IMG/VR virus record: IMGVR_UViG_3300030331_000519
Span: 1 to 35,062 of that record
DNA length: 35,062 nucleotides
Source of the DNA: a virus
Strand: one strand, 5' to 3'
The stretch's first letter is position 1. The number at the start of each line of letters is the position of its first letter. Of this stretch, positions 3,168 to 21,700 are shown piece after piece. The translations under genes were made by a program, and so were the position numbers. The notes below the pieces were generated by a model. It did not search any database. It was not told where the DNA came from and saw only the letters and a list, made by a program, of their open reading frames with translations.

Positions 3168-3356
3168 TTATTTTGTAATTAAAGTAAATATAACGTATGC
3201 CATTCCTGTTATCAAGGCTCCAGTTGATACCAATAGTATACTTTCCACCCTGTTTATTTGGTGTTCAAGCTTATGTATTTTATCATGAGTCTGCTTTTGC
3301 ATTATTCTGCAAAGCTTTTCATGTTCTTCAATTTTTTGTAATGCGTTTTTAGCCAT
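3168..3356 (-). CDS. XhlA-like holin or lysis accessory protein (62 aa)
   Basis: The ATG at 3356 (MAKNALQKIEEHEKL) overlaps the end of the 1323-aa gene by 8 nt (ATGGCTAA). The reading frame is open further upstream, but that part would lie inside the larger gene. Residues about 5-38 are a charged amphipathic helix, and residues about 39-60 (SILLVSTGALITGMAYVIF) form one membrane span with a lysine end. This is the XhlA/hemolysin layout. One nucleotide separates it from the M15 peptidase, making a compact holin-endolysin pair. The call is by architecture, not close sequence identity. Confidence 0.7.
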   Translation of the reverse strand: MAKNALQKIEEHEKLCRIMQKQTHDKIHKLEHQINRVESILLVSTGALITGMAYVIFTLITK

Positions 3357-7328: not shown

Positions 7329-8624
7329 CTATGTGCCACTGCCATAATCTGCTTGGAAGACCAGCTCTGGTTCTCCGGCTGCGTTTTGACCTACAACATA
7401 AAGTGTTGTTCCTTCAATAACATAATTTCCTACTGGGAAGTCTTGAGGTATGTCTGCTCTAGTTCCAAACCTAGGATCTTTGTCTATATTTATAACTTTA
7501 CCTGCTCCTATTGAAGCAGCGACAGCAGAGAATAAAGCTACGTTATCTAAAGTTCCGTATGTGCTTTTACTTAAAGCAGTTAAAATATTTTCATCAATTG
7601 TTTTTGCACCTCTTGTAAAGATATCCAAGTCATTACCTGTTAAACCTATTTTCTTACCAAACTCGTTTCTTTTTTCTTCGATAGATTTACCAGTTCTGTC
7701 AGTGCCATATTGTTTTTTAATTTTTGCTTGATACTCAGCAAGTTTCATTGAATCAGACAACGCTCGTTTTCTCTTAGTTTCATCGTCTTCCATAGCTGTT
7801 TCTCTTTCATATTCTTTTAACGCAGCAATTTGTTTTATTTTATCTGCATCGTCATAAGCTGTAGCACCTGAAGCAAAAGCTGCATCTAATGCACCTTGTA
7901 CTCCACCCTCTGTTAATCCTCTTCTAATAGCTTCTATGAGTTGGTAATTACCTCTTTTAACAGCTCTATCGTATCCTAATATTTCTCTAAGTTTTTTTCT
8001 ATCAGTTAATTTTTTTTCATCTGGATCTTCTACTATTTTTCTTTTTTCATCAGGCACATACGATCCAGGTATGTTAGATGTATCTTCAGGTAATTCTCCT
8101 TTTGTATAGTATTCATCATCAACTACATCTTCTTCTGTTATAGTATCAACATCAGCGAAAGCAGCACCCCCTCCTTTTGCTGGTTCCATTTTTGGTAGTT
8201 TACTTAGAATATCTTCTTTTAAAGCTGTAGAAAAAGCTATTTTATTTTTTGTTCTAGGTGATACAAACTTAGGTAATTTTGCATATTCTTCTCCTGGAAT
8301 ACCGGATGAAGAAAGTCTAAATATACTGTCATCAAATATAGATCTACCTTCTTTAAATAAATCATCGTATCTATATCCAAACTGAGGTTTGTCTGTTCTT
8401 TGATTAAAAAACATATTTGTTCTGTCTAGACCAGGTATTGTAGTTTCACTTGGTGGTGGAGTAACAAATACTCTTTTTAAAAAATCGTCATAATCCTCTT
8501 TAGTGTATGCGCTAGTTCCAAAAGCACCTTGATTGTATTTTCTTCTTGGTTCTTGAATACCATCCATGATCCCTTCTTTAATAGGACCACCCATTCTAAA
8601 CATTGGTCTGTTTAATGGTTTCAT
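7329..8624 (-). CDS. Putative internal virion protein with MGGPIKEGIM leader (431 aa)
   Basis: The start overlaps the upstream stop as TAATG at 8624. The N-terminus, NRPMFRMGGPIKEGIMDG, is a short pattern I recognise at the start of structural proteins from uncultured marine phages. The middle is acidic (TITEEDVVDDEYY) and helical (DADKIKQIAALKEYERET). The C-terminus is predicted beta-rich, with VGNYVIEGTTLYVVGQN. There is no enzyme motif. It belongs to the block of four to five genes between nozzle and lysis genes that I interpret as ejection proteins. Confidence 0.6.
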   Translation of the reverse strand: MKPLNRPMFRMGGPIKEGIMDGIQEPRRKYNQGAFGTSAYTKEDYDDFLKRVFVTPPPSETTIPGLDRTNMFFNQRTDKPQFGYRYDDLFKEGRSIFDDSIFRLSSSGIPGEEYAKLPKFVSPRTKNKIAFSTALKEDILSKLPKMEPAKGGGAAFADVDTITEEDVVDDEYYTKGELPEDTSNIPGSYVPDEKRKIVEDPDEKKLTDRKKLREILGYDRAVKRGNYQLIEAIRRGLTEGGVQGALDAAFASGATAYDDADKIKQIAALKEYERETAMEDDETKRKRALSDSMKLAEYQAKIKKQYGTDRTGKSIEEKRNEFGKKIGLTGNDLDIFTRGAKTIDENILTALSKSTYGTLDNVALFSAVAASIGAGKVINIDKDPRFGTRADIPQDFPVGNYVIEGTTLYVVGQNAAGEPELVFQADYGSGT

Positions 8625-9514
8625 TAAGCCCCCTTCATTGCGCCATAAACATTGGCAAACAAGTTACCAATACCAAGAGCGTTAGATAGGGCTGTGCTAA
8701 AAGGATTTGGTGTTGTCTGTGGCATTGCAGGAGTTGCAACTCCTCCAGATAATCCAGTTAACGCTGTACCAAATCTCTCTAATCTTCCGTATGGTTCCAT
8801 TGCGCTTGCTTGTTCTGCTTGTTGTGTTGCTGTTAATCTTGATTGATCTAATCCTTGTCTTAACGCTCCAAGGCCTCCTAACGCAGAAATGTCTTGTCCT
8901 AAACCTTGTCTCATAAAGTTAGACAAACCAAATTGTTGACCAGCTAAACCTGCTCTAGCTCCTGCCATTGCTTGTTGTTGTTGAAATGCATTTGCTCTTC
9001 TTGCTGCTGCATCTTGGAATCCTTGTTGCAATAGACCAGCTCTTAAACCTGCTCTACCTGTTAAAGAATCAGCATCGTATTGTCCTAACAATGCCCCTTC
9101 TCTACCGCCACCAAAAGCTCCGGCTGCTACTGCTGCATCTTGAATTGTTTGTCTACCACCAACTCTTGATTCATCAAACGCTCTTAATGTTTCATCGATG
9201 ACTGCTTGTTGATACGGTGATTGAAAATCTTGTATTGATCCAGGCCCGGTCCCTGCTCCCGTGCCCGCGAACTGACCGAGTCCGGCAACGTCTTGACCGG
9301 CCTGTGATATTGCTTGTTGTGCTGATGCTAAAAATGGTGCGTAGCTACCAACACCTGCTTGAGCTAATCCTATTGCTTGTGTTTGTAAAGGATCAAGTCC
9401 AGCAATAAACTGTGGACCCATAAATGTTTTTGGATCTAATGCTGCACTATAAGTTGCTTTAGCCTGTCTTGCAAAGTCTGTTGTAAAATCTTGTAAATAA
9501 TCTGGTACTGCCAT
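8624..9514 (-). CDS. Ala/Gln/Gly-rich internal virion protein (296 aa)
   Basis: Composition is dominated by Ala, Gln and Gly, in a long helical region with QAISQAGQDVAGLGQF, a glycine hinge AGTGAGTGPG, then PYQQAVIDETLRAFDES and AAVAAGAFGGGREGAL. This is a widespread virion protein type in marine podoviruses; the helix-glycine alternation recalls ejection proteins that form a tube across the envelope. TAATG overlaps on both sides couple it to its neighbours. A 30-base patch near 9240-9270 is clearly richer in GC than its surroundings. The exact place in the virion is not known to me. Confidence 0.65.
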   Translation of the reverse strand: MAVPDYLQDFTTDFARQAKATYSAALDPKTFMGPQFIAGLDPLQTQAIGLAQAGVGSYAPFLASAQQAISQAGQDVAGLGQFAGTGAGTGPGSIQDFQSPYQQAVIDETLRAFDESRVGGRQTIQDAAVAAGAFGGGREGALLGQYDADSLTGRAGLRAGLLQQGFQDAAARRANAFQQQQAMAGARAGLAGQQFGLSNFMRQGLGQDISALGGLGALRQGLDQSRLTATQQAEQASAMEPYGRLERFGTALTGLSGGVATPAMPQTTPNPFSTALSNALGIGNLFANVYGAMKGA

Positions 9515-10980
9515 TATACTACTCTACTTTCGAGCTCCTTCATTGTGTTATACATTTTTTGCGCGCCACGTTCTATGCTTCCGCCGCCCGCACCTCTGAC
9601 AGCATCAGCTGTCATTACAAATTCGTTCTTACTTAATCTTGCAGGTACATCATCTGCTTTTTCTCTTGCTCCAATTGGAACAAAACCGCCATTAGCCCTG
9701 AAGTCCATTTCTAATCCATTTAGATTCATAAGTCCACCTTCTTTAGCTTCTGTAACACCTTTCATTATATTAAACTCATCTCTTAACATTTCCATTTCAT
9801 CTGCATTTAATTCTCTTAATGTTTTTCCAAACATATCCATAGCCATTTTATTTAATCTTTCTGATTTAAATCCTTCTCCTAAAGCTAATAAATCACCGCC
9901 TTTATTTAATTTTGCTCTTCCTCCGTCCGCAGCTGTAAAAGTTCCTGTTTGTGTGATATTACCTTTTTTTAATTCTTCAAATTCATAAGGAGTTATTTTG
10001 CTGCTTGGATTAACTGACTTGTAGGTATCGTAATCCATCATTTGTGTCATTGGTTCTTTAGCTCTTTTTAAATCTATATCTGTTACTTCTGTTCGAAGGT
10101 TACTACCAGGAAGAGTCTGATCTCCCGTTTCTAATATTAAATCTTGGTCATTAACATTACCTTTTTTAAACAGTATCAAATCAAGAATAGTTTTCGCTTT
10201 TCCTACACCTGACCTTGGATCTATAAATGGAGAAACAATTCCATAAGCATTTTTTAGTAATGAAGGAATTTGATTACGATTATCATCGCCACCGCCACCA
10301 GTTGGTGGTGGACTGAAATCATCTTTGGATGCATCCGCTCCTCCGCCTCTAGGTGTTGTGTTTGATCCTTGTTGATCATACTCTCTACCTGATGCACCTC
10401 CGACTCTGTATCCGGGTCTTAAATCAGCTATACCACCTTCAGCAGCATAAAAATTTGGTAGAACATATTCTTTTCTAGCCATGAAGTCTAAGTTCCCACC
10501 GCCACCAGTTCTGTAATAATCTTTTGCTTGATTAACAATGGCTGCGATTCCCTCAGGTTGAACAGTGTAATCTATCGCTTCTACGTCTTCTTCTTTTGGT
10601 GCTAGTAATTTAGGAGCAACAAAAGGTAATAGAAACCCTGCTGCACCAGCAGTAATACCTAAATTCTTCATGCTAAAATTTTTACCAAAAGGATTTAATG
10701 TTGAAAAAAAACTAGGACCTGTTGTTGTTCCAGGTAATGTAGTGCCTGGAGTTAATGAACCTAGACCTAATCTAGAAAGCATTCTTGCTTTACTAAAACC
10801 ACCTGGTCCTACTGCCCCCAATCCATAACCAGCGGCAGCCAATAAGGCCATTTTTCCTATAGGACTTTTGGCAATTTTGCTTACACCTTTAACAGCTTTT
10901 TTGATCGGTCTAGTTATTTTTCTAACTAAACTCCCTAATCCGTACAGCTGTCGTGGTTCTTGCATTCTAGAAATTGCCAT
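9514..10980 (-). CDS. Putative ejection protein with cationic amphipathic N-terminus (488 aa)
   Basis: Residues 10-45 read RQLYGLGSLVRKITRPIKK, then KAVKGVSKIAKSPIGK and a hydrophobic LLAAAGYGLGAVG: a cationic amphipathic segment leading into a membrane-like helix. A second hydrophobic stretch lies at about 107-123 (LGITAGAAGFLLPFVAP). The centre is glycine-rich and disordered. The C-terminus carries DDVPARLSKNEFVMTADAV, a conserved short domain that I know from phage tail and internal proteins. Short GG-x-x-x-L modules (EGGIADLRPGYRVGG near 181) recur in neighbouring proteins. It probably interacts with membrane during DNA entry; this is inference. Confidence 0.6.
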   Translation of the reverse strand: MAISRMQEPRQLYGLGSLVRKITRPIKKAVKGVSKIAKSPIGKMALLAAAGYGLGAVGPGGFSKARMLSRLGLGSLTPGTTLPGTTTGPSFFSTLNPFGKNFSMKNLGITAGAAGFLLPFVAPKLLAPKEEDVEAIDYTVQPEGIAAIVNQAKDYYRTGGGGNLDFMARKEYVLPNFYAAEGGIADLRPGYRVGGASGREYDQQGSNTTPRGGGADASKDDFSPPPTGGGGDDNRNQIPSLLKNAYGIVSPFIDPRSGVGKAKTILDLILFKKGNVNDQDLILETGDQTLPGSNLRTEVTDIDLKRAKEPMTQMMDYDTYKSVNPSSKITPYEFEELKKGNITQTGTFTAADGGRAKLNKGGDLLALGEGFKSERLNKMAMDMFGKTLRELNADEMEMLRDEFNIMKGVTEAKEGGLMNLNGLEMDFRANGGFVPIGAREKADDVPARLSKNEFVMTADAVRGAGGGSIERGAQKMYNTMKELESRVV

Positions 10981-11002
10981 ATTTTTACCTCAATATTTCG
11001 TT

Positions 11003-11203
11003 TTACTTCGTTTTTCCAAACAAATCAAGCCTCGGCATGACGACGTTTACGTCTCTTCTAATGTCAGTTTCTGGTATATTTTTGACTTTCCATTCTTCTT
11101 CTGAGGCATACACCTCTCCTGTTTTAATATTACTAATTTTTGTGGTAACTTTTGCTGGTTCAATTACCGGAACCTCTTTACCATTTACGATTGTTGTTTT
11201 CAT
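11003..11203 (-). CDS. Small conserved phage protein (66 aa)
   Basis: The ATG at 11203 overlaps the previous stop as TAATG. The protein has a beta-rich N-terminal half (TTIVNGKEVPVIEPAKVTTK), then TGEVYASEEEWK and the C-terminal DIRRDVNVVMPRLDLFGKT. The ending IRRDV...P.LDLFG recalls a family of short marine-phage proteins beside internal virion genes. The length fits that family. No function is known to me. Confidence 0.7.
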   Translation of the reverse strand: MKTTIVNGKEVPVIEPAKVTTKISNIKTGEVYASEEEWKVKNIPETDIRRDVNVVMPRLDLFGKTK

Positions 11204-11556
11204 TAGTCTATTGTCTCCTTGTTTATGTTCATATAACTAATACCTATAGTTACAGAGTCTGTAGAACTCATCGTAACTTTTAATGCTGTGCTTCCCTCTA
11301 CTACTAAAGGTAATGATAATATCTCTGTGCTTGCGTTTGCAGATAATGTTTGAGTATTTATAATATTAAAATCGTTATTCTTAATAGTTATAGTTGGTGT
11401 GTTACCTGTATTATTTGTAACTCTTAACGATTTCACTATGTATGTTTGATTTATAGTAGGTAGTTGGTTACCAGAAGAGTCCGTGCCAAACATAGCTGTT
11501 TCTGCAGTTGTAGCTAAATTTACTCCAAAGAATTTAAACTGATTTACTGTAGCCAT
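11203..11556 (-). CDS. Small beta-sandwich virion-type protein (117 aa)
   Basis: The protein consists of alternating hydrophobic beta strands: TYIVKSLRVTNNTGNTPTI, STEILSLPLVVEGSTALKV and STDSVTIGISYMNI. It has no signal peptide and many Asn/Thr, as in Ig-like or tail-attached domains. It sits in a chain of TAATG overlaps with a 55-aa gene before and a 66-aa gene after. A minor tail or virion surface component is plausible by context; no specific homolog is recognised. Confidence 0.65.
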   Translation of the reverse strand: MATVNQFKFFGVNLATTAETAMFGTDSSGNQLPTINQTYIVKSLRVTNNTGNTPTITIKNNDFNIINTQTLSANASTEILSLPLVVEGSTALKVTMSSTDSVTIGISYMNINKETID

Positions 11557-11723
11557 TATGAATCTAAAAAGAAACTTCTTGCTTCTATTTCTTGTTTTAA
11601 TTCATCCTGAAAAGATGAGTTTAATTTTGTTATTACACCATCTAAGTCTCTAACTAAAGATTGAAAAGTTTTTTCTTCGTACTCTTCACTTGCTCTTGTT
11701 AATGATTGTACAATTTTTGCCAT
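11556..11723 (-). CDS. 55-aa helical protein
   Basis: The ATG at 11723 has AGGA 8 nt upstream, and the stop at 11556-11558 overlaps the next start as TAATG. This fits the coupled chain exactly and leaves no gap. The product starts MAKIVQSLTRASEEYEEK and ends KQEIEARSFFLDS. It is nearly all helix, with spacing that suits a short coiled coil (FQSLVRDLDGVITKLNSSF). I recall similar short proteins ending in RTFFLG at this locus in pelagiphages, so I consider it real. Its role is unknown, perhaps assembly of the adjacent virion proteins. Confidence 0.75.
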   Translation of the reverse strand: MAKIVQSLTRASEEYEEKTFQSLVRDLDGVITKLNSSFQDELKQEIEARSFFLDS

Positions 11724-11725
11724 AA

Positions 11726-12919
11726 TTATAATCCTAGTATTCTAGCTAGTCCTCCTTCTTTTAAACCAGAAAAGGCACCACCGGATGTATAACCTTGCTC
11801 ATTGGTTGTTGAACCAGCTCCTCCTCCCATATCAGCGCCTCCGCCATATCCTCCCGTGGCTGTATTTTCTGATCCTGCTCTACTAGTGGTTATACCACCA
11901 CTTGTTGTAAAACCTCTGTCATCTAGAGCATCACGTCGTGATCTTTCTTTTTGTTTAATTCTATTTATATTAGCTTCTGCAACTTCATTATATCCAGTGT
12001 CTTCTTTTATTTGTTCAAGTTCTTTTATACCTTTTTGATCGTAATTATATCGTATTAAGTTTAATTTATTCATACGATTTGCAGCGTCTACCAAAGACTT
12101 ATTTGGACCTTTAAATACATATTGACCAGTCTCTTCATCAAATTCTAATGTAGTATCTTTACCATATCTTTTATCAAATAAATCAGACTCAAAATATTTA
12201 TCTAATTTTGCAATATCCTTTTTCTGTTTTTCTATATAGTTACCAAAACCAGAAACAACATTTCTACCAAAAATATCTTTGTTGCCACCTGTAGTATTTT
12301 CTCCAAATATAGTTGGACCAGTGTAACCCATTTTAGTTTGTGTGTAGATCTGCTCTGGCACAGTCATTTTATCATAGTAACTACTTGGCAGAACTCTATT
12401 TAAAATGTTTGTTAAGGTAGGAATACCAAATTGAAATCTTACATCTCTAGGATCTTCTGCAGGATAATTTCCAACACTTGTTTCATCAGCCATGTATTCT
12501 TTTATTGCTGCTATTCTTTCATCAGGATTCATGTTTTGAAATATAGGCATTTGTCTAGTGTCTCCAGCTAGCTTTGCCATATTAAAAGCAGTAGCATCTC
12601 TTTTCATTTGATCGACAGATCTTTGTTGTGGAAGACCAAAATTATAAAGCATTGACGCAAGTCCGTCAGGATTAGTTAATTTGTTTTGTCTATTAGTAGT
12701 CGCTCTACTAAAATCTTCTAGTAATGTTGTTGCTGGTGAAACAGATGAAATTCCACCGCCTCCAGTAATATTTTTTGTTGGAATGCCGGCATTAACAATT
12801 AAATTTTCTACCTCATTATTATCTTCTTTGTCTTCTTCAGTAGGAGGATTCAATAAGTACTTGATTCGAGGCATAAAATCTAAACCTTGATCTGTATAAA
12901 AACTGTCGTCTATAGCCAT
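11726..12919 (-). CDS. Putative internal virion protein with Gly-rich C-terminus (397 aa)
   Basis: ATG at 12919 overlaps the nozzle-like gene stop as TAATG. The N-terminal two thirds are polar and helical (MKRDATAFNMAKLAGD, RIAAIKEYMADETSVG). Residues about 345-380 are Gly/Thr-rich and probably disordered (GGYGGGADMGGGAGST). The last residues, SGLKEGGLARILGL, match the GG-L-A-x-L pattern in the 488-aa protein. No catalytic motif was found. Position between the nozzle and other internal proteins suggests a virion component. Confidence 0.6.
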   Translation of the reverse strand: MAIDDSFYTDQGLDFMPRIKYLLNPPTEEDKEDNNEVENLIVNAGIPTKNITGGGGISSVSPATTLLEDFSRATTNRQNKLTNPDGLASMLYNFGLPQQRSVDQMKRDATAFNMAKLAGDTRQMPIFQNMNPDERIAAIKEYMADETSVGNYPAEDPRDVRFQFGIPTLTNILNRVLPSSYYDKMTVPEQIYTQTKMGYTGPTIFGENTTGGNKDIFGRNVVSGFGNYIEKQKKDIAKLDKYFESDLFDKRYGKDTTLEFDEETGQYVFKGPNKSLVDAANRMNKLNLIRYNYDQKGIKELEQIKEDTGYNEVAEANINRIKQKERSRRDALDDRGFTTSGGITTSRAGSENTATGGYGGGADMGGGAGSTTNEQGYTSGGAFSGLKEGGLARILGL

Positions 12920-15099
12920 TATCTTCTCCCATCCGGTTGTATGTCTAGTCTAAAAGTTCCTAACTTCCAGTCTTGTGACGTGCTTGTATTCTTCACGGTC
13001 AGAGCAATAGATCTTGCACGAACGCGAGTATCTACTTTAGTCGTTGCTGACGTCGTTGTAAAGGATTGTGTTTTAGCAGCGCTATTAGGAAAATCTCTAG
13101 TTGTAAAGTCTATTGTTGTGGTCCCCACTTGTGAAATAAAGTCAGGTAAAAATCTACGTATTTTCATTATAAATTCACCATCACCTCTAAGGTCTGGCAT
13201 ACCTACTGTTTGTCCTCTTGCTCTTCTTTGAGTAATATCAAAATCACCAGAAGTTATAGTTCCAAGTATAGCAGTCGTTGCTCCTCCAGCTAAAACTTGA
13301 TCGGTCCCTGTTTCGTGTTCATAGTATATTGTGCAACCATCAGTATTCCCTGTAACATCATAAGAGTTTTGACTGTCAGGGTCATATTCTGTTGCGTGTG
13401 GTTTACCGAATACAGCAGAGTCTGCCCATGCAGCTCTTGCTAAAGATCCAGTAGTCCAAATAGGTCTTTTACTGGTTGAATCTAAATAATTATATGTCAC
13501 CGATCTATCAACTATGTCAGATCCATTGGTGCAATAAAACCATGTCACTTCACCAAACAAATTATTTAATCCTGCATTAACAAGATCTCTTGCTGTGGTA
13601 TTTATATCGTCATAAACAAAATCTTCTACCAAGCATGGTATAGATTTTAACTGACCATCATAAGTAAAGAATCCATTTTCTGACATCCAGTATGCAGAAC
13701 CATCAACCTCTACGGCAGCATTTTTACCAAGCAAACCGCAGTTAGTTCCTACCTGTTCAAATGCAAATGTAAATGGTTGACCTACGAATCTCATGAGAAA
13801 GAGTGCAGTGTCAGTCCAAACATAGATAGCATCCCTACCTCTAATAGCTCCCATAATCATGGAGCCATCTGCAAGTCTTTGAGTTCCTGCTGTGTTAGTT
13901 GCAGTTACAGTGTATGCGTTTGTACCGCTAATATTTTCTTGATCTGAGAATCTTATAAACATATCATCTTGAGTATCTGTATTGCCTACAGTTGTTTCAG
14001 TTCCAAAAAATACTAAGTGTCTATCTGGTGTAGATACCATTACATGACGAGACGCTGTTGGTGCGTTTGCTATTATGGTAGCTCTGATTGCTGTTGCATT
14101 GGTAGGAGCAGAATCCCATTCAAAACATGCACCATTGTAAATTAGTGCAATAAGTTTAGTTCCAAAATTATCTAATACCCAAAGACCTGGATCAAGAGTA
14201 ACATCGTCAGAAGATGACTCACCCCAAGCAACAAAAGCTGAGATGTTTGTTACTGTAGCTCCAGCTGAGTGAGTAGTTTTAGTGGTTCCGTTTACACCTC
14301 TGTTTCCTCCACTCAAGGTCCCTGTTGCCGTGTTATTGTTTGTATAGGATATATCTTCAGTTCCTATTCTAATTTCTCCTGATGCTGGAAACTGTGTAGA
14401 GTCAGCGATAACTATAGTCGTGTCAGTGGTGTTAGTTAGAGCTGTGCTTAAAGTAGTTGTAGATGGTCCTGAAACAGTTCCTGACCATTGTCCAGTACCC
14501 CATCCAAAACCTCCAACTTGTTTAGAAGGTCCAACACGATAGTACAATAAGGCGTCTGCACTACCTACGTTGGTCATTGGACTAGCTCCTTCATTACCAC
14601 CCATTGTAACAGTTATGGTAGTTGCTGATGGTGCAGAAGCAACCATGTATTTTAAATTATTAAAGTTACCATCTGCAAATGCAGAACCAGAACCAGATAT
14701 ACCACTTACATTTTCAAACAAAAGAATATCATCATCTTGTAAGTTATGTGGACTTGGAAAAGTTATTGTTACTGTTGGTGAGCCAGTTTGACTAGAAAAA
14801 TTAACTCCGCTAATTGTAGCTCTAATAGGGTGTATGTCATAGAACTGACCCCCAGAGTAAACGTATAAAATTTTGTTTGTGCCTATAGCAGCGTATTTAA
14901 TACCTGCATTATTGTCAAATTGATGAAGAGCCCTAGCAGCACCTGTCAGCTTATCACTTCCTAACTGCTGCCAACCACCTATTTTTTCAGGTGATCCATA
15001 TCTAAAACGCACATTATCGCCATCAAACCACTGGCCTTCGGCCCCAGTTTCGGTGACTTGTTTGTTAAATCCGGGTAAAAATCCTAGTTTTTGTAGCAT
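12919..15099 (-). CDS. Tail nozzle / DNA-stabilisation-type protein (726 aa)
   Basis: The start, LGFLPGFNKQ followed by GQWFDGDNVRFRYGSPEKIGG, matches the common opening of podoviral tail hub, nozzle or packaged-DNA-stabilisation proteins (T7 gp12 or P22 gp10 class), which close the tail after packaging. The body is beta-rich with repeated Trp/Tyr motifs such as WVLDNFGTKLIALIYNG and DAIYVWTDTALFLMRF, as in a beta-propeller. Residues 215-286 form an inserted beta module shared with the 276-aa protein at 25863-26693. The C-terminus, KNTSTSQDWKLGTFRLDIQP, is typical of this class. The class is fairly sure; the exact family is not. Confidence 0.6.
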   Translation of the reverse strand: MLQKLGFLPGFNKQVTETGAEGQWFDGDNVRFRYGSPEKIGGWQQLGSDKLTGAARALHQFDNNAGIKYAAIGTNKILYVYSGGQFYDIHPIRATISGVNFSSQTGSPTVTITFPSPHNLQDDDILLFENVSGISGSGSAFADGNFNNLKYMVASAPSATTITVTMGGNEGASPMTNVGSADALLYYRVGPSKQVGGFGWGTGQWSGTVSGPSTTTLSTALTNTTDTTIVIADSTQFPASGEIRIGTEDISYTNNNTATGTLSGGNRGVNGTTKTTHSAGATVTNISAFVAWGESSSDDVTLDPGLWVLDNFGTKLIALIYNGACFEWDSAPTNATAIRATIIANAPTASRHVMVSTPDRHLVFFGTETTVGNTDTQDDMFIRFSDQENISGTNAYTVTATNTAGTQRLADGSMIMGAIRGRDAIYVWTDTALFLMRFVGQPFTFAFEQVGTNCGLLGKNAAVEVDGSAYWMSENGFFTYDGQLKSIPCLVEDFVYDDINTTARDLVNAGLNNLFGEVTWFYCTNGSDIVDRSVTYNYLDSTSKRPIWTTGSLARAAWADSAVFGKPHATEYDPDSQNSYDVTGNTDGCTIYYEHETGTDQVLAGGATTAILGTITSGDFDITQRRARGQTVGMPDLRGDGEFIMKIRRFLPDFISQVGTTTIDFTTRDFPNSAAKTQSFTTTSATTKVDTRVRARSIALTVKNTSTSQDWKLGTFRLDIQPDGRR
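14242..14457 (-). repeat. Beta module shared with the 276-aa connector protein
   Basis: Residues about 215-286 of the nozzle-like protein contain TTIVIADSTQFPASGEIRI, then a Y-T-N stretch, GNRGVNGTT and THSAGATV. The 276-aa protein has the same order: TTITLTDATNFPTSGFIVI, QYTGKSGNDLTGCTRGT and THNSGAKV. The similarity is in protein, not in nucleotide sequence. Confidence 0.6.
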
Positions 15100-15149: not shown

Positions 15150-15629
15150 TTAAAAAGCCTCGTAAACTACATTCAATACTAATCTAAAGTCTTGGTCAGT
15201 GCAGGTAGTTCCTGAGTGAAACGTGGCACTTGGAAATGTAAGCAAGGTATTTTCCTCCGACTTTACATTTTGATCTTTAAATCTCGTATATCCATTATTA
15301 GTATTAAGATATAGGATAGAAGTCAATGCATTAGAGGACTCAGTATCCTGGTGATAATCGTGCTCTATGATCTCAGGTGTCTTGGTCAACAGGTTTAATT
15401 TAACCCTTATTAAACGTTTAATATTTAACTTGTCTAGCAAAGGCCTGATAATTGTAAAATGGTAGCTTGATGGCTTATCGTTTTTATAAAATATATGCAC
15501 AAATTGTCGATGGGTATCGTTATCGTCATACACACCTTGAATAAACCATTCAAATAAATTGCTTAATGCTAGATCATTTAATTTTTTTATATCTTGTTTT
15601 TTTAAAAAATCTTTCTTTATATCTATCAT
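15150..15629 (-). CDS. 2OG-Fe(II) oxygenase-like protein 1 (159 aa)
   Basis: Last gene of the nine-gene oxygenase-like run. The double-stranded beta-helix core shows an iron site: His93-Gln-Asp95 in IEHDYHQDTES and distal His138 in TFPSATFHSGT, with Arg149 in FRLVLNVVY placed to bind the 2-oxoglutarate carboxylate. A strand SILYLNTNNGYTRF follows the HxD, as expected. At 159 aa it is a minimal catalytic domain. ATG at 15629 overlaps the upstream stop by 4 nt (ATGA). The expected reaction is hydroxylation using O2 and 2-oxoglutarate; the substrate is unknown. Confidence 0.75.
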   Translation of the reverse strand: MIDIKKDFLKKQDIKKLNDLALSNLFEWFIQGVYDDNDTHRQFVHIFYKNDKPSSYHFTIIRPLLDKLNIKRLIRVKLNLLTKTPEIIEHDYHQDTESSNALTSILYLNTNNGYTRFKDQNVKSEENTLLTFPSATFHSGTTCTDQDFRLVLNVVYEAF

Positions 15630-16123
15630 GATGTAAATCCTTCAAACGAAGAATTAAATACTATCACACTTTTACGTTTGTTCGAATTATTAATTGGTGA
15701 CCTATGGTAGAGATGTGATGAAAAAGTAAGAATGTCTCCTTCTTTTATATTTACTTTAGACCCATCTTCAAATTCTGTTGCTATCTTAGGGTCAGGTAAT
15801 TCTAAAAAATACACATTAGAAAATTGACAACCTGAATGATTATGCCAGACCTGAAAATTTTGTTTACGATATTGTTGATACCAAGCTTTGTGTATGATGT
15901 AATATTGACTTTTTAAAGAAGCAGCCATGTTTAATAAAAATTTTTCTAAGTGAGGAAAGAAGTAGTCCCAATATTCTCTAGTGTCATTTGGTTTTAAATA
16001 GAAGTCTGTTTTTGTTAAAGACTCTGTATGATCCTTAATAGACACGTCCGGCATCTTTTTAATTAAGTTTAAGACTTTCTTTTTATGTAGTAAGTGATCT
16101 TTAAAAGGACTTACGTTTATCAC
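15626..16123 (-). CDS. 2OG-Fe(II) oxygenase-like protein 2 (165 aa)
   Basis: Uses GTG at 16123, overlapping the previous stop as GTGA. The helical N-terminal half leads into WYQQYRKQNFQVWHNHSG, with His94-Asn-His96, then FSNVYFLELP, EGDILTFSSHLYHRSP with His140, and KRKSVIVFNSSF. The HxH...H form with a FSNVYFL strand is that of the marine-phage putative 2OG-Fe(II) oxygenase group (PF13759-like). Lys/Arg at 149-151 could bind the co-substrate. The fold call is solid; activity and substrate are unproven. Confidence 0.7.
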   Translation of the reverse strand: MINVSPFKDHLLHKKKVLNLIKKMPDVSIKDHTESLTKTDFYLKPNDTREYWDYFFPHLEKFLLNMAASLKSQYYIIHKAWYQQYRKQNFQVWHNHSGCQFSNVYFLELPDPKIATEFEDGSKVNIKEGDILTFSSHLYHRSPINNSNKRKSVIVFNSSFEGFTS

Positions 16124-16725
16124 TCTATTACACCTTTAGAAAGACTAAGATCAGTTGTAAAATTAGCGGCTACAGAAATTCTCTCACCTCTGCTTTTAAA
16201 AGGAATAACATAATGAAGAAGATTAAAAGGAAAGATGAATAGGTCCCCAGGTTTAGGTAAATGTGCGTGTTCTGTTATGTTATGTAATCTTTGTTCTCCA
16301 TATCTAAAAATAATAGCACCAGGCCCTGAAGAAGAACCTAGGTAGTCTTTATTTTCTTTTATAAGATCAGGGGGATTATCTAAATATAAAACACTAGAAA
16401 AGTGACAACTGCTATGTGTATGTGGGGGATTAGATTCTCCAGCTACCATGTAGTTAACCCACGCAGATTTACATTCTAATGGTCCAAGAGTATTGTTGTG
16501 AAACTTTTCATAGCCATGTCTATAACAATCTAAATATTCTTTTATAATTTTTTCAAACTTTTTTATATCAATAGAGTATTCGTCATCAATTACTCCAGCT
16601 AATTTTTTTCTAAAATCACGTTTCTTTGATTTAACACATAATTTTTTTACAGCAGCTAACTCCTCACTGGTTATCTTAGTCTGCATTAAAAAAGGTCCGA
16701 AGAAAGGGTGATAGTATTCAATCAT
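16120..16725 (-). CDS. 2OG-Fe(II) oxygenase-like protein 3 (201 aa)
   Basis: The motif NPPHTHSSCHFSSVLYLDNP gives His102-Thr-His104 followed by the family strand. KPGDLFIFPFNLLHYVIPF gives His171, and Arg182 lies in ERISVAANF. This is the clearest PF13759-type pattern after gene 7. The N-terminal 70 residues are helical and charged. The ATG at 16725 overlaps the upstream stop as ATGA. It differs enough from its neighbours that the cluster cannot be a very recent tandem duplication. Confidence 0.75.
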   Translation of the reverse strand: MIEYYHPFFGPFLMQTKITSEELAAVKKLCVKSKKRDFRKKLAGVIDDEYSIDIKKFEKIIKEYLDCYRHGYEKFHNNTLGPLECKSAWVNYMVAGESNPPHTHSSCHFSSVLYLDNPPDLIKENKDYLGSSSGPGAIIFRYGEQRLHNITEHAHLPKPGDLFIFPFNLLHYVIPFKSRGERISVAANFTTDLSLSKGVIE

Positions 16726-17252
16726 TTAAAAACAGTGTTGGTTGCAATAACCCATCTAGGTTTATTATTCTTAATTTCTTTTGGTCTATGTCCTAATTGA
16801 GATGGCCATATATACCAATGGTCCAACACAGGTACAGTTTCAGTTTTAAAAAAATCATTTGCAAACTCTGTCCCATGATCTGTTTTAGTTAAATAACAAA
16901 TTCCTGATACCTGTATTTTAGATTTATGTTCTTCTTGAAAATGATTGTGCCACACTGCTGGATTCTTTGTTCCTGGTTTTACATAGAGAGCCCATGACAG
17001 TGTTTGATCTACTTCATTATTTGGAAATACTGATTTTAAAATTTTGTAATAACTTTGATTTAATTTAATAATTTCAGAATGAGGTATGTCTAAAGCGTTA
17101 GCAGCCGATTGTTCTTTAGGGTGTGGACAATTGGGATATTCCATACAACATTTACAACCATCTAGATATTCTTTAAAAGCAGCTATTAACTTTTTATTAT
17201 CTAACTTATCAAACTTATAAACTCTTATTGGTATGTCAGCAAAATCTATCAT
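16722..17252 (-). CDS. 2OG-Fe(II) oxygenase-like protein 4 with Cys cluster (176 aa)
   Basis: AVWHNHFQEEH supplies His102-Asn-His104, VSGICYLT the following strand, WYIWPSQLGHRP the distal His155, and PRWVIATNTVF Arg166. Before the core lies a cysteine cluster, GCKCCMEYPNCPHP (Cys33, 35, 36, 42), which the neighbours lack. It could bind a metal or form disulfides. The ATG at 17252 overlaps the upstream stop as ATGA. Substrate unknown. Confidence 0.7.
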   Translation of the reverse strand: MIDFADIPIRVYKFDKLDNKKLIAAFKEYLDGCKCCMEYPNCPHPKEQSAANALDIPHSEIIKLNQSYYKILKSVFPNNEVDQTLSWALYVKPGTKNPAVWHNHFQEEHKSKIQVSGICYLTKTDHGTEFANDFFKTETVPVLDHWYIWPSQLGHRPKEIKNNKPRWVIATNTVFK

Positions 17253-17839
17253 ATTTTAAAAGGTATAAAATGATTTCCGTATAATCTATTTGGTACAGAT
17301 TTTATAGGAATTATATCAAATGCTATTGTAATACGTGGTCGTTTAGATTCTTTCCATACTGAACTACTGTGTTCATCACCATCACTTTTACCAATGACTA
17401 TCAATCCTTCCTTACTTACTACTTTGACGGTCTTTTCAATATTGGGTATCCTATATTCTGTAAAACTATTACCAACTTGTGCACAATAAAAACCATGCCA
17501 AACTTTATGTTCTGGTTGCCAGTGTGGGTGCCAATCTATTTTTTCACCCTTTCTAAATACGTTTAACCAACTTTTTATAACGTAAATCTTATCTTCTAAT
17601 AAAGGTGTGATATTTTTTACCAGCTCCGCGTACAGTCTATTTAAATCAGCACCAGGAAATGTAAGAAGATTATATTTGTGATTATGAGCTGCAGGCACAT
17701 TGCCATGCCATTTAGGATCAATTAAAGCAAAATTACTTATTAAAGTTTGCTCTATTTCTAAACAATGTTTTACTAATTCTTCGTTGTTTATAGAATTTGT
17801 TTGAAAGCCATACAAATAATTATCGCTATATGTAATCAT
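17249..17839 (-). CDS. 2OG-Fe(II) oxygenase-like protein 5 (196 aa)
   Basis: ATG at 17839 is chosen because it forms a TAATG overlap with the upstream stop; an in-frame TTG two codons earlier would also be possible. The core shows KIDWHPHWQPEH (His104-Pro-His106), WHGFYCAQ, EGLIVIGKSDGDEHSSS (His157) and RPRITIAFDIIPI with arginines at 167 and 169. KSWLNVFRKG before the HxH is typical of the group. It ends with an extra basic tail. Function beyond a probable oxygenase fold is unknown. Confidence 0.7.
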   Translation of the reverse strand: MITYSDNYLYGFQTNSINNEELVKHCLEIEQTLISNFALIDPKWHGNVPAAHNHKYNLLTFPGADLNRLYAELVKNITPLLEDKIYVIKSWLNVFRKGEKIDWHPHWQPEHKVWHGFYCAQVGNSFTEYRIPNIEKTVKVVSKEGLIVIGKSDGDEHSSSVWKESKRPRITIAFDIIPIKSVPNRLYGNHFIPFKI

Positions 17840-18474
17840 TAACAATAACTCTTTCTTTTAAACCATGCAGGCAAACCTGGATGTGGTCGTGTATCGTATA
17901 AATTATTCTCAGCACCCTCGGTGTCTTCACTGTTATAGTGTAGAAAAACTTGTGCACATTTTTCTCCAGTGAAAGGTTCTCTCCAATGTTCTAAATCCTC
18001 TCCTCTGTAAATCAACATATCACCTGGTTTTAAATTTATTTTAACTCCTTTTAAACCGTGTCTACCAGACGGCTCTAGATAAATAGGCCACGGGTCTCCA
18101 CCTAAATTTAATGTAGTGGATATCTCACAACTAAACCTATCTTTGTGTCTTTTTAAAATATCTCCTTTTTTATAAACCCTGACATAAGAATAATTTTCAA
18201 ACAGATTCATTCCTGTTTTCTTTTCCATAAGTGGGTGTAGTTTTAACAATAATGTTTCCATTGCTATGTCAGAATAATGAGCATAAGTGTTAGGAACTTG
18301 TTGAGTAGTTTTTTCCCAAACTCCAAAAGCTTCTTCGAATGGAGATATATACTTGTTTTTAAACATAGTGTCAGCCACATCTCTTTTTAATAATATATAA
18401 TTATAACAGAACTGAGCTAGCTCAGGACTAATAGCTTGTTTAATTACTTCGTATTTCTTTTTCTTAAAACTCAT
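17839..18474 (-). CDS. 2OG-Fe(II) oxygenase, prolyl-hydroxylase-like (211 aa)
   Basis: A canonical HxD enzyme: YVRVYKKGDILKRHKDR gives His110-Lys-Asp112, CEISTTLNLGGDPWPIYLEP the strands after it, and KPGDMLIYRGEDLEHWREPF the distal His163, followed by CAQVFLHYN. This form is frequent in cyanophages and pelagiphages. The expected reaction is 2OG- and O2-dependent hydroxylation of a protein or small-molecule substrate. Coupled by ATGA to gene 7 and by TAATG to gene 5. One of the safest enzyme calls of the cluster. Confidence 0.85.
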   Translation of the reverse strand: MSFKKKKYEVIKQAISPELAQFCYNYILLKRDVADTMFKNKYISPFEEAFGVWEKTTQQVPNTYAHYSDIAMETLLLKLHPLMEKKTGMNLFENYSYVRVYKKGDILKRHKDRFSCEISTTLNLGGDPWPIYLEPSGRHGLKGVKINLKPGDMLIYRGEDLEHWREPFTGEKCAQVFLHYNSEDTEGAENNLYDTRPHPGLPAWFKRKSYC

Positions 18475-19124
18475 ATTGTTGGTGCCGTTCCCTGTATTAA
18501 ATCTCTGTGTATTGCTTGAATATTAAAATGAATAAATCTAAAAGGTTCTTTACCTTTATCAACTGTAAAAGCATGTGGCAGATAGCTATTAAAAATCATC
18601 AAAGCACCTGGGTTACATTGATGAGAAACCTGTATGTTGGACGAGTTTATATCTTTATTTAATTTAACTGGTAGCTTTGCCATTGCAGCTGAAGGCCTTG
18701 GATCAAAGAAAACAGGTTGTGCAGTTGCAGCTGAAGATTTTAAAAAATAAAAACCTGATACATGACTATTAGGATGAACATGTGTATGTTGATGAGCTCC
18801 ACCATTTTTAGAAAATTCTTGTAACCAAAAGTCTGTTACTACCGGAACATAGTTTTCTATGTTGTATCCTTGACTATCTAAAAAATGCCAGCTTTTATCT
18901 ACAACGTAATCTAACAAAGTTTTAAAATTAGGATCTGATTGTAATTCATCAGAATGATGAATAAGTCCGAAGTCTTTTGTATTTTTAATCAAATCTTTAT
19001 TTTTTGCTCTTGCATTTTTAACATGGACATTGCCAGCTTTGTTTAAAGTGTCAACCCACTCAGGTCTATAATCTAGCCACACAGGTGATGCAAAATAACT
19101 TTCTACTCTCATATTGTCTTTCAT
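18471..19124 (-). CDS. PF13759-type 2OG-Fe(II) oxygenase (217 aa)
   Basis: NGGAHQHTHVHPNSHVSGFY is the textbook motif of this putative oxygenase family (His115-Val-His117 before SGFYFL), followed by VFFDPRPSA, NPGALMIFNSYLPHAFTV with His184, and EPFRFIHFNIQA with Arg196. Length is normal. Two ATGs are possible (19124 or 19112); neither has a good Shine-Dalgarno, and 12 nt separate it from gene 8. Acts in the cytoplasm; substrate unknown. Confidence 0.85.
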   Translation of the reverse strand: MKDNMRVESYFASPVWLDYRPEWVDTLNKAGNVHVKNARAKNKDLIKNTKDFGLIHHSDELQSDPNFKTLLDYVVDKSWHFLDSQGYNIENYVPVVTDFWLQEFSKNGGAHQHTHVHPNSHVSGFYFLKSSAATAQPVFFDPRPSAAMAKLPVKLNKDINSSNIQVSHQCNPGALMIFNSYLPHAFTVDKGKEPFRFIHFNIQAIHRDLIQGTAPTI

Positions 19125-19136
19125 AATGTATATATA

Positions 19137-19763
19137 TCAATAATATGGTTTTCCACAAGTCCAAATAACCAAACTATATCTAGTTCCTTTCGTAACTTTT
19201 TTTACTCTGTGCCAAACAAAAGATGGAAATACTACAATAGAACCTCTAGGCAATATTTCTGAACACGCGGTTGTTTCAATCTTTTTTCCTGGCTCATTAT
19301 TATTTTTAGCAAACTCTAGTTCTCCTCCTTCATAATCTTCTGGATGAGATAGACTACATGTAACAGATAGCTTTCTTATCTTTCCATGTGATGGATCATT
19401 TGGTCTATCGTAAGGGATATCCCATGAATCACAATGCCAACCATAATACTGATTTAATCTATATTTAGTAAATTGACAAGATTCAGATATGTCCCATTGA
19501 AAGTTCCAACCTGCATTTTCGTTAGCCGTTTTTACGTAAGGTAAAATTTCTTTATATATCCACTGATCATTTAACCATGCAACATTAGAGTCTCTTTTCT
19601 TTTTTAAATCTTTAAGATCCTCACCAACCAACTCTCCTTTGTCTTTAAACTTACCTGTAACAGCTGTCTGTTCTTTTTGCATATTGCCATATTCAATAAG
19701 TTCATCACAAAACTTAGGTGATAAAGCACTTTGAAAATACCAATACGTGTTTTTTAAATTCAT
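19137..19763 (-). CDS. 2OG-Fe(II) oxygenase, prolyl-4-hydroxylase/PKHD type (208 aa)
   Basis: All elements of a P4H-like dioxygenase are present: ALSPKFCDELIEYG at the start, TKYRLNQYYGWHCDSWD with His110-Cys-Asp112, RKLSVTCSLSHPEDYEGGEL as the central strands, RGSIVVFPSFVWHRVKKV with His185, and GTRYSLVIWTCG with Arg195. This class often hydroxylates prolyl, lysyl or asparaginyl side chains, or small molecules. It is the member with the clearest protein-hydroxylase ancestry, and lies about 1 kb downstream of the X-Pro-Gly-rich adhesin. Confidence 0.9.
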   Translation of the reverse strand: MNLKNTYWYFQSALSPKFCDELIEYGNMQKEQTAVTGKFKDKGELVGEDLKDLKKKRDSNVAWLNDQWIYKEILPYVKTANENAGWNFQWDISESCQFTKYRLNQYYGWHCDSWDIPYDRPNDPSHGKIRKLSVTCSLSHPEDYEGGELEFAKNNNEPGKKIETTACSEILPRGSIVVFPSFVWHRVKKVTKGTRYSLVIWTCGKPYY

Positions 19764-19766
19764 TAA

Positions 19767-20309
19767 TTAACAATGAGGTGTTATTTCTTCATACGTAACC
19801 CTTAAAACTATTCTTTGATCATCTAGTTTATTGGGTAAAAGATAATATTCTAGATTAGAATTAAAAATTACATACTTGTTACTTTCTATCGGCATGTTCC
19901 AATATACTCCTTTCTTACGGTTGTTATCATACTCTATTATCATGTCATTGTCATCACTATCTATAAAATAAAGCATAACAATATCCGGACTGTTTTTTAA
20001 ATCAGCATAATTTAAATGATGTCGTTTTGTAGTTCCTTCGTTTTTCCAATGAACCATAACATCATGAGTTTTTCTTCTTAACGTCTTGCCTGTTTTTAAT
20101 TGATATTTTGCTTCAGCGTAATCTAATATCCAAATAATATCCTGTGATAAAGGTACGTGAACGTCTTTAAATCTATTTAATTTTCGTTCATGTAAATCTT
20201 GAATGTTCCAACTTATAAAGTCATAAACGTTTTCAAAATTAACTTTAGATAATGATAAAGGTAGTTTTCCGTGTAAGATAAATTGTTTAGATAGCTCTAC
20301 TTCTTTCAT
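19767..20309 (-). CDS. Degenerate oxygenase-fold protein (180 aa)
   Basis: The layout resembles the neighbours: HDVMVHWKNEGTTKRHHLNY, a strand IVMLYFIDSDDNDMIIEYD, KYVIFNSNLEYYLLPN, and QRIVLRVTYEEI with Arg166 and Arg170. But there is no HxD or HxH at His97-His98, and the distal histidine is missing, with LEYYL in its place. I read it as a double-stranded beta-helix protein that has lost iron binding, perhaps a partner or regulator of the active enzymes. It is the first gene of the run, 13 nt after the 155-aa gene. An unrelated fold remains possible. Confidence 0.55.
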   Translation of the reverse strand: MKEVELSKQFILHGKLPLSLSKVNFENVYDFISWNIQDLHERKLNRFKDVHVPLSQDIIWILDYAEAKYQLKTGKTLRRKTHDVMVHWKNEGTTKRHHLNYADLKNSPDIVMLYFIDSDDNDMIIEYDNNRKKGVYWNMPIESNKYVIFNSNLEYYLLPNKLDDQRIVLRVTYEEITPHC

Positions 20310-20322
20310 AGGAATTTAAATA

Positions 20323-20790
20323 CTACATTCCTTCTCGCCAAATAACCTCTTTGTCCCACGATTGAGTTCCTTCATTCCAATGGTACAAATCATCTACACC
20401 ATTAGTTTGGGTTGAAGGTTCTGGAGTTGGTGCTTCCCAATCCATCGTAGTTTCGTTTATTGTCCAACTATTAAATACTACCCCGTCGTCATTTTCGGGT
20501 CTAGGTAATATAAATGCATCTCTTGTTGGATCATACGTAGCTCCAGGAGTTGCATAATTATATCTCAACATTTTACTTTGATTAGATGCAACTGATCCAT
20601 CGTTGTTTAAATATCTTCCTCTTCTTGTGTGGTATGAAGTTTGTTTCCAATGTTCCCAACCATGTACGTTTCTTAAAAAGTTAATACCAACTTCTTCGTT
20701 TTCTATTCCGTTTTTCATAAGGTGTTCATCACCTACTGAGTGAACAGAAAGTACAACGTTGTTTTCATCTAATTTTGCAAAGTGTGCCAT
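20323..20790 (-). CDS. Conserved tail-region phage protein (155 aa)
   Basis: MAHFAKLDENNVVLSVHSVG opens a well-known conserved phage protein type; WEHWKQTSYHTRRGRYL, YATPGATYDPTRDAFILPRP and NSWTINETTMDWEAP complete the pattern. Such proteins accompany tail-fibre genes in cyanophages and pelagiphages. The C-terminal third has Trp/Pro/Thr repeats (PTPEPSTQTNG). No enzyme motif is visible; a small tail-associated or fibre-assembly role is inferred from position. Confidence 0.75.
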   Translation of the reverse strand: MAHFAKLDENNVVLSVHSVGDEHLMKNGIENEEVGINFLRNVHGWEHWKQTSYHTRRGRYLNNDGSVASNQSKMLRYNYATPGATYDPTRDAFILPRPENDDGVVFNSWTINETTMDWEAPTPEPSTQTNGVDDLYHWNEGTQSWDKEVIWREGM

Positions 20791-20794
20791 AATA

Positions 20795-21700
20795 TTATTG
20801 GAACTTGTATCTAATCGCTACAAATCCTGATCCTCCTAATCCTGGTGAGCAACAACCTGCGCCAGTGTTTCCACCTCCGCCACCGCCTCCAGAATTAGCT
20901 GGAGAAGGACTGTTTGTTTGGCCTCCGCCTCCATATCCTCCTGATCCTGGTGAGCCTGGAGAATAAGTTCCTCCTGCGCCACCGCCAGAAAAATATCTGC
21001 TAGAACCTGATGGTCCCGGTGTTCCATAACTTGGTGCTGTTGGTCCAAAGAATGATGTTGAAATACCTGATCCGTTTCCACCACTTCCTGCTGGTGTAGT
21101 AAATCCAGGTGATCCGTTAGTTCCTGGGCTATTAGCTCCGCCTCCGCCACCTGCTCCTGGCGAACACCCACCCGTAGATGTTCCCCCTGGGTTTCCTTCT
21201 GGTGGAGAGAATCCACCTGCGTTTCCGGACCCTGATGTAGATGTTCCGTTATTTCCGCCACCCGATCCTCCAGGTTGGTTCTGTCCTCCACCTCTTGTAG
21301 AAGTGATTGTACTAAAAATTGAAGGTGTCGCTGCTGAATATCTAGGTGAAGGCGATGATCCACCCCCTGCACCAACTTGTACAGGATATGATTGAAATGC
21401 TATTGCAAGACCGCCTGTAGCTGGACTTGGATAATTTGTTCTCCAGCCTCCGCCACCTGCGCCTGCTCCACGGTATTTTCCACCACCTGGGCCTCCGCCT
21501 GCAACAACAAAATATTCTACTGAGTTTGATCCTGCAGGTGTTCCCTCATTAGCAACAGCTAAAGTACCGTCACCTGTGAAAACGTGAATTTTATAATTAC
21601 CGTCTGTGATTGTAGTATTACCGCCGGTTGCGTTAACGTATGGAGTTATGGTTCTTCCTCCGGCTCCGAAACCTAATACTCTATATCCAAAGTTTGACAC
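20795..21700 (-). CDS. Glycine-rich tail adhesin with X-Pro-Gly motifs (301 aa)
   Basis: Starts at GTG 21700 with AGGAGG upstream. The N-terminal 75 residues are a beta domain (TDGNYKIHVFTGDGTLAVA, EYFVVAGGG). The rest is extreme Gly/Ser/Pro-rich sequence ending GLGGSGFVAIRYKF, the common ending of phage glycine-rich domains. Such domains pack as polyglycine-II helices in T4-type gp38 adhesins and bind host receptors at the fibre tip. About ten X-Pro-Gly tripeptides (for example SPGSPGSGG, NPGG, GTPGP, CSPG) are present. Receptor unknown. Glycine-rich genes of this type evolve fast. Confidence 0.75.
   Translation of the reverse strand: MSNFGYRVLGFGAGGRTITPYVNATGGNTTITDGNYKIHVFTGDGTLAVANEGTPAGSNSVEYFVVAGGGPGGGKYRGAGAGGGGWRTNYPSPATGGLAIAFQSYPVQVGAGGGSSPSPRYSAATPSIFSTITSTRGGGQNQPGGSGGGNNGTSTSGSGNAGGFSPPEGNPGGTSTGGCSPGAGGGGGANSPGTNGSPGFTTPAGSGGNGSGISTSFFGPTAPSYGTPGPSGSSRYFSGGGAGGTYSPGSPGSGGYGGGGQTNSPSPANSGGGGGGGNTGAGCCSPGLGGSGFVAIRYKFQ

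Follow-up and report, generated by a model that had tools for sequence, protein, structure and literature searches.

Why would a phage carry nine genes of one enzyme fold side by side, and on what would their products act? The question is raised by positions 15150-20309 of the IMG/VR virus record IMGVR_UViG_3300030331_000519, whose 35,062 bases, classed as linear and perhaps a fragment, constitute the window analysed here. The source is a marine phage whose relatives, the HTVC023P-type pelagiphages, are viruses of SAR11, an abundant bacterium of the ocean. The segment holds nine consecutive open reading frames (ORFs) on the minus strand, numbered ox1 to ox9 as they are transcribed, from 20309 to 15150. 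A sequence-only reading had described them as nine genes of the 2-oxoglutarate (2OG)-Fe(II) oxygenase fold. Profiles for all nine and structural models for ox1 and ox4 bear this out, and the row is almost certainly an island of members of this superfamily or fold.

Nine divergent members of one fold

Pfam and PHROG profiles place all nine proteins with 2OG-Fe(II) oxygenases, ox1 weakly and ox4 through its fold. Above the Pfam cut-off, ox2 (19137-19763, HCD...H...R) falls in PF13640 (1.9e-16) and, with matches to phrog_61 (8e-38) and PiuC (9ghl, 3e-6), is a PKHD/P4H-type 2OG-Fe(II) oxygenase. PF13759 is matched, also above the cut-off, by ox3 (18471-19124, HVH...H...R; 2.7e-13), ox7 (16120-16725, HTH...H...R; 3.5e-16) and ox8 (15626-16123, HNH...H...R/K; 1.9e-8, with phrog_81 at 1.4e-24); ox3 also resembles TIGR02466 at 4.8e-13, under the curated cut-off. 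The oxygenase matches of ox5 (17249-17845, HPH...H...R), ox6 (16722-17252, HNH...H...R) and ox1 (19767-20309) come from PHROG, through phrog_81 at 1e-6, 7e-6 and a weak 4e-5, respectively. Two PHROG names are misleading: ox4 (17839-18474, HxD...H) is called 'ferrochelatase' (phrog_2954, 6.5e-50), and ox9 (15150-15629, HQD...H...R) 'DNA endonuclease V' (phrog_274, 9e-42), the latter scoring 8.7e-5 against PF13640, under the Pfam cut-off. The mixture of PF13640/P4H-like HxD and PF13759-like HxH subfamilies seen at first reading is thus present.

Profiles derived from viral-contig relatives, run against window ORFs of 90 amino acids (aa) or more, connect eight of the nine proteins mutually, tying ox5 to ox8 and ox3, and ox9 to other oxygenases; ox4 forms a family of its own. 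The oxygenase profiles yield zero matches at E<1 among the remaining window ORFs of at least 90 aa, and none to the heme oxygenase, PcyA, neck and Gly-rich genes of the phages Mosig and S-RIM44. This silence rules out chance or profile drift as the source of the matches.

The predicted iron-ligand pattern is HxD...H in ox2, ox4 and ox9 and HxH...H in ox3, ox5, ox6, ox7 and ox8. By sequence, eight genes retain the ligands and ox1 is the exception, the same division into eight and one that had been drawn before. The ligands are also kept in most ox6 relatives, and HxD/H in the relatives of ox9. An Arg or Lys said to be usual on the last strand is found at about H+10 to H+12 in ox2, ox3 and ox5-ox9; ox4 lacks the usual 2OG-binding Arg and has an invariant Gln175 close to that position. 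The double-stranded beta-helix is modelled for ox4 (Z ~16) and assigned to the other catalytic genes by homology.

The nine proteins share little pairwise identity, the best blastp E among them being 5e-5, and a recent tandem duplication is therefore excluded, in agreement with the earlier view. Comparison with five relatives gives dN/dS values of at most 0.25 for all nine genes (0.08-0.25 for ox1). Purifying selection acts on every member, as the suggested retention by selection had implied. Six junctions of the block overlap: five by 4 nt (four ATGA and one GTGA) and one as TAATG, given the in-frame ATG start of the ORF at 17249-17845. The true start of ox5 is probably this ATG, at 17839. 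The other junctions are gaps of 3 and 12 nt. Promoters and terminators within the block do not rise above those in shuffled sequences.

A ligand-less head gene and a probably misnamed family

Structure prediction, proposed at first reading for the whole row, was carried out for ox1 and ox4, and both models are nearest to oxygenase-fold structures. In ox1, HxD, HxH and the distal His are all missing, a Tyr replacing the latter, and the loss is common to its close relatives. The AF2 model of ox1 has a pLDDT of 80.5, its input alignment containing catalytic relatives that may help the fold; the nearest PDB entries are 2rg4 and 3bvc (Z 15), and AlkB appears among the structural neighbours. When 615 distinct island proteins were screened for the ligand motif, nearly all had it. 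It is missing in 41, of which 36 belong to the ox1 family, and of 32 ligand-less copies 27 are the first gene of their run. ox1 is an oxygenase fold and is not classed as an oxygenase.

The label of ox4 finds no counterpart in family profiles. No ferrochelatase family is matched by ox4 in Pfam and NCBIfam at E<=1, nor in Pfam at E<=10 by ten of its relatives, six of them labelled ferrochelatase, and in the ACG-2014f 'ferrochelatase' record, a fusion, the second half matches PF13640. PDB sequence searches returned nothing reliable, whether ox4 was used as a single sequence or as a profile, and a fold search was therefore needed. The AF2 model (mean pLDDT 94.8) best matches SnoN, the P. putida P4H and PHD2 at Z ~16, with a best Foldseek E of 2e-9. 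Prolyl hydroxylases and further 2OG oxygenases match it along its length, and no ferrochelatase fold is among the structural matches listed. H110, D112 and H163 do not vary among pelagiphage, cyanophage and bacterial relatives, nor do Arg 99, 113 and 165. None of the tests points to a ferrochelatase, the family-profile match being absent and the modelled fold that of a P4H with HxD; judged from the model, ox4 appears to be another oxygenase. Doubt about the label is not new, since one GenBank record is double-named 'ferrochelatase / Fe(II) dependent oxygenate' and others state 2OG oxygenase. Among the papers searched, none says that the 'ferrochelatase' of phages is an oxygenase.

For the HxH members, an alignment of ox3, ox5, ox6, ox7 and ox8 with 29 further sequences (34 in all) leaves H-x-H and the distal His as the sole invariant residues. 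H102, H104 and H171 are invariant in ox7, as is HxH in ox3. The bacterial structures 3bvc (E 2e-27) and 2rg4 (9e-25) match the HxH profile with H-x-H and the distal His aligned, which suggests a three-histidine metal site in these members. The HxH members have fold and H-x-H...H positions in common with these PF13759/TIGR02466-like structural-genomics proteins, which, unlike the island members, are single bacterial proteins of unknown function.

A conserved core with changing accessory genes

The survey scanned 80 loci reached via the tail gene bordering the island, 79 via ox4, a few isolates and the window; ox4-found loci are biased to having ox4, some contigs were fetched twice, many are cut, and counts over related loci are not independent. 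The row in the window is one of several versions of an island at this site. At least one oxygenase is present in 132 of the 142 loci with the tail gene, in runs of 1 to 11; in the other ten the contig is cut just upstream of that gene, with at most 1.06 kb left. The longest runs, of 11, lie at the same site in two relatives (L003 and L163). Close relatives show single-gene differences, L008 having one oxygenase more and L003 two. In another close relative, ox2 is shortened to 135 aa from 208 (L002:3023-3430), and individual members can therefore be lost.

Among 96 dereplicated runs, ox2-HxH-ox4 are adjacent in 55, against 10 expected and a maximum of 21 in 5000 shuffles, and in order in 79, against a shuffle mean of 18; an ox1-family gene heads the run in 30 of 35. 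The core order ox1-ox2-HxH-ox4 is strongly conserved, and accessory oxygenases are gained and lost. More distant relatives have the site upstream of the tail gene filled by, for example, a holin, peptidase or chitinase. Two contigs of assemblies labelled Pelagibacteraceae (L169 and L170) have runs that open with ox1 and close with ox4, which fits a SAR11 host.

Genomic setting

The island is flanked by structural-type genes, on the minus strand like itself. Downstream, 50 nt beyond it, begins the tail gene (12919-15099), encoding a virion structural protein of phrog_3287 (4.7e-94), with ~44.5% identity to HTVC023P, HTVC027P and 023Pt_psg01 over 78-100%. For one unannotated gene the identity is 39-54%. 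On the upstream side, an uncharacterised phrog_7759 protein (20323-20790, 6e-33), a frequent island neighbour, is followed by a Gly-rich (31% Gly) adhesin-like protein of the tail-fibre region (20795-21700; PF21722, phrog_2295) and then by more structural-type genes. Elsewhere in the window, several genes downstream of the tail gene (8624-12919) often share 50-70% identity between close relatives and are more divergent than the oxygenases. A 1,323-aa protein (3349-7320) has no PHROG or Pfam match and lies close to a gene with a match to a DNA ejection protein family. A SNF2-type helicase gene (1080-2627) is on the plus strand, opposite to the surrounding structural genes.

Proposed function and its alternatives

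We read the locus as a set of divergent 2OG-Fe(II) oxygenases, gained and lost within a structural operon, that acts on phage adhesin or tail-fibre proteins, and give this reading a probability of about 40%. Hydroxylation of adhesin or tail-fibre proteins is our best guess because the island adjoins the Gly-rich adhesin-like gene in several phage backbones. In 46 of 56 informative loci such a gene ends no more than 2.5 kb upstream of the island, against 35% of random windows in the same loci. Gene association makes an adhesin or tail protein a tentative choice of substrate, ranked ahead of host proteins, metabolites and nucleic acids. The core consists of ox1, the PKHD-type hydroxylase ox2, the HxH oxygenase ox3 and the P4H-fold ox4, with accessory oxygenases joining and dropping out. 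The oxygenases would be produced together with the neighbouring structural proteins and may work as 2OG/O2/Fe(II) protein hydroxylases on the phage adhesin and tail-fibre proteins or on a surface target that these meet, ox1 possibly being a subunit without catalytic activity or one that holds the substrate. The earlier suggestion of substrate sets or a multi-enzyme assembly fits both the conservation of the core order and that of the ligand-less head gene. The specific form in which a multi-oxygenase assembly, ligand-less partner included, acts as hydroxylase of the Gly-rich receptor-binding protein of the phage itself, accessory turnover altering adhesin chemistry and host recognition, is improbable.

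Several observations weigh against an adhesin-directed island. The nearby Gly-rich gene is missing in 10 of the 56 informative loci. Oxygenase repertoire and adhesin covary positively by Pearson correlation, in a sample that mixed loci found by two genes and is driven by a few very similar pairs, and not at all by rank correlation in the set found through the tail gene. Island size is unlinked to how much Pro, Gly, Asn or Asp the adhesin contains; it is linked to A, Y, K and length, probably through confounding by adhesin types. The ox4 relatives of Syn30 (L208:2917-3516) and P-SSM7 (L210:2989-3561) sit away from the tail fibres, in the replication region between a DNA methylase and the clamp-loader gp62, a setting that speaks against a purely tail-related role. 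For ox4 itself, 2OG as co-substrate is not certain because the usual Arg is missing.

The replication setting in Syn30 and P-SSM7 suits instead an AlkB/TET-like activity that repairs or modifies the DNA or RNA of the phage, as do the AlkB neighbour of the ox1 model and a repair role proposed for cyanophage 2OG genes (PMC2984593). The top sequence matches are nevertheless to PF13759 and PF13640/PKHD rather than AlkB or Tet/JBP, and the island here is located among structural genes, making nucleic-acid chemistry quite unlikely. That same location, away from likely takeover genes, counts against hydroxylation of host proteins (translation factors, envelope) or surface lipids and glycans, by which the phage would take over the cell or block superinfection. 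Structural relatives of ox4 include the P. putida P4H, solved with EF-Tu, and PHD-type protein hydroxylases, ox2 is similar to PKHD enzymes, and multiple divergent enzymes would suit multiple host targets; a substrate cannot, however, be named from fold similarity, and host targets seem unlikely, if less so than nucleic acids.

A metabolic role, in which small-molecule substrates or 2OG drawdown steer host nitrogen and energy metabolism, is proposed for cyanophages in PMC3037559 and repeated in PMC9602691, and iron-transport genes increase during HTVC027P infection (PMC12753301). Drawdown would nevertheless require one active enzyme rather than nine divergent, core-ordered ones under purifying selection, of which a conserved member, ox1, has no iron site; we hold this role to be as improbable as the nucleic-acid one. 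Selfish or hitchhiking build-up at a permissive site, with no joint function, would account for the high accessory turnover (1-11 genes per locus) and the shortened ox2 of L002. Selection on every member, and the conservation of ligands and core order across phage backbones, already disfavour it and leave it very unlikely.

Relation to known multi-oxygenase phages

Several oxygenases in one phage are known, and the earlier impression that nine in a row are undescribed holds in part: rows of 9-11 appear to be new, while relatives reach 11 and isolates five or six. HTVC023P has ox1-ox2-HxH-ox4 consecutively, HTVC033P ox2-HxH-ox4, and HTVC027P three oxygenase-like genes. The available text of Wittmers et al. 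2022 (PMC9599517) reports eight non-orthologous 2OG oxygenase types in HTVC023P-type phages, with an adjacent 'ferrochelatase'. The phage group is related, and several non-orthologous oxygenases lie near a 'ferrochelatase', as here; that text places them nearby rather than next to one another, unlike the present row, and makes no mention of rows of 9-11, the core order, a ligand-less head gene or the 'ferrochelatase' being an oxygenase.

Among pelagimyophages, HTVC008M has five oxygenases in a run and Mosig EXVC030M six consecutive ones (L213:6135-11220). Two of the six go by the names ferrochelatase and DNA endonuclease V, and after the run come genes annotated as heme oxygenase and phycocyanobilin:ferredoxin oxidoreductase (bilin reductase). 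As in the window, these runs are consecutive, include the ox4 family and lie near phrog_2295 Gly-rich genes; they differ in their T4-like backbone, fewer genes, position before neck genes and mixed annotation names. Gly-rich phrog_2295 genes adjoin the oxygenase runs in HTVC033P, HTVC008M and Mosig, a phrog_7759 gene adjoins the Gly-rich gene and the oxygenases in HTVC033P and HTVC008M, and an oxygenase of DSL-LC04 adjoins a lectin-like gene. Annotated tryptophan halogenase genes lie near oxygenase runs in HTVC008M (L083:16844-18238) and cyanophage S-RIM44 (L212:4634-7745).

Most cultured T4-like cyanophages have up to five 2OG oxygenases, according to PMC3037559 and PMC9602691, and the latter gives 24 such genes for cyanophage S-SCSM1. 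That set, which includes PF13640 and PF13759 proteins, is likewise large and divergent (44% top identity); its ORF numbers are scattered genome-wide, and the portion available reports no such row.

In conclusion, the island is an extreme variant of known phage multi-oxygenase sets, not a new kind. New, as far as the accessible literature shows, are rows as long as 9-11 genes, their conserved core and ligand-less head family, and the evidence for the 'ferrochelatase' as an oxygenase. Expression work and mass spectrometry of virions thereby gain defined targets in the island, its ligand-less family and its core order. Should ox4 be an oxygenase, the 'ferrochelatase partner' of pelagiphages (PMC9599517) would be no evidence of haem metabolism, but rather a further oxygenase. 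The 'ferrochelatases' enriched in seasonal viruses and assigned by phrog2954 (PMC11561400), and the cyanophage ferrochelatase-domain cluster T4-GC 615 (PMC3037559; P-SSM7), would likewise be oxygenases rather than signs of haem metabolism.

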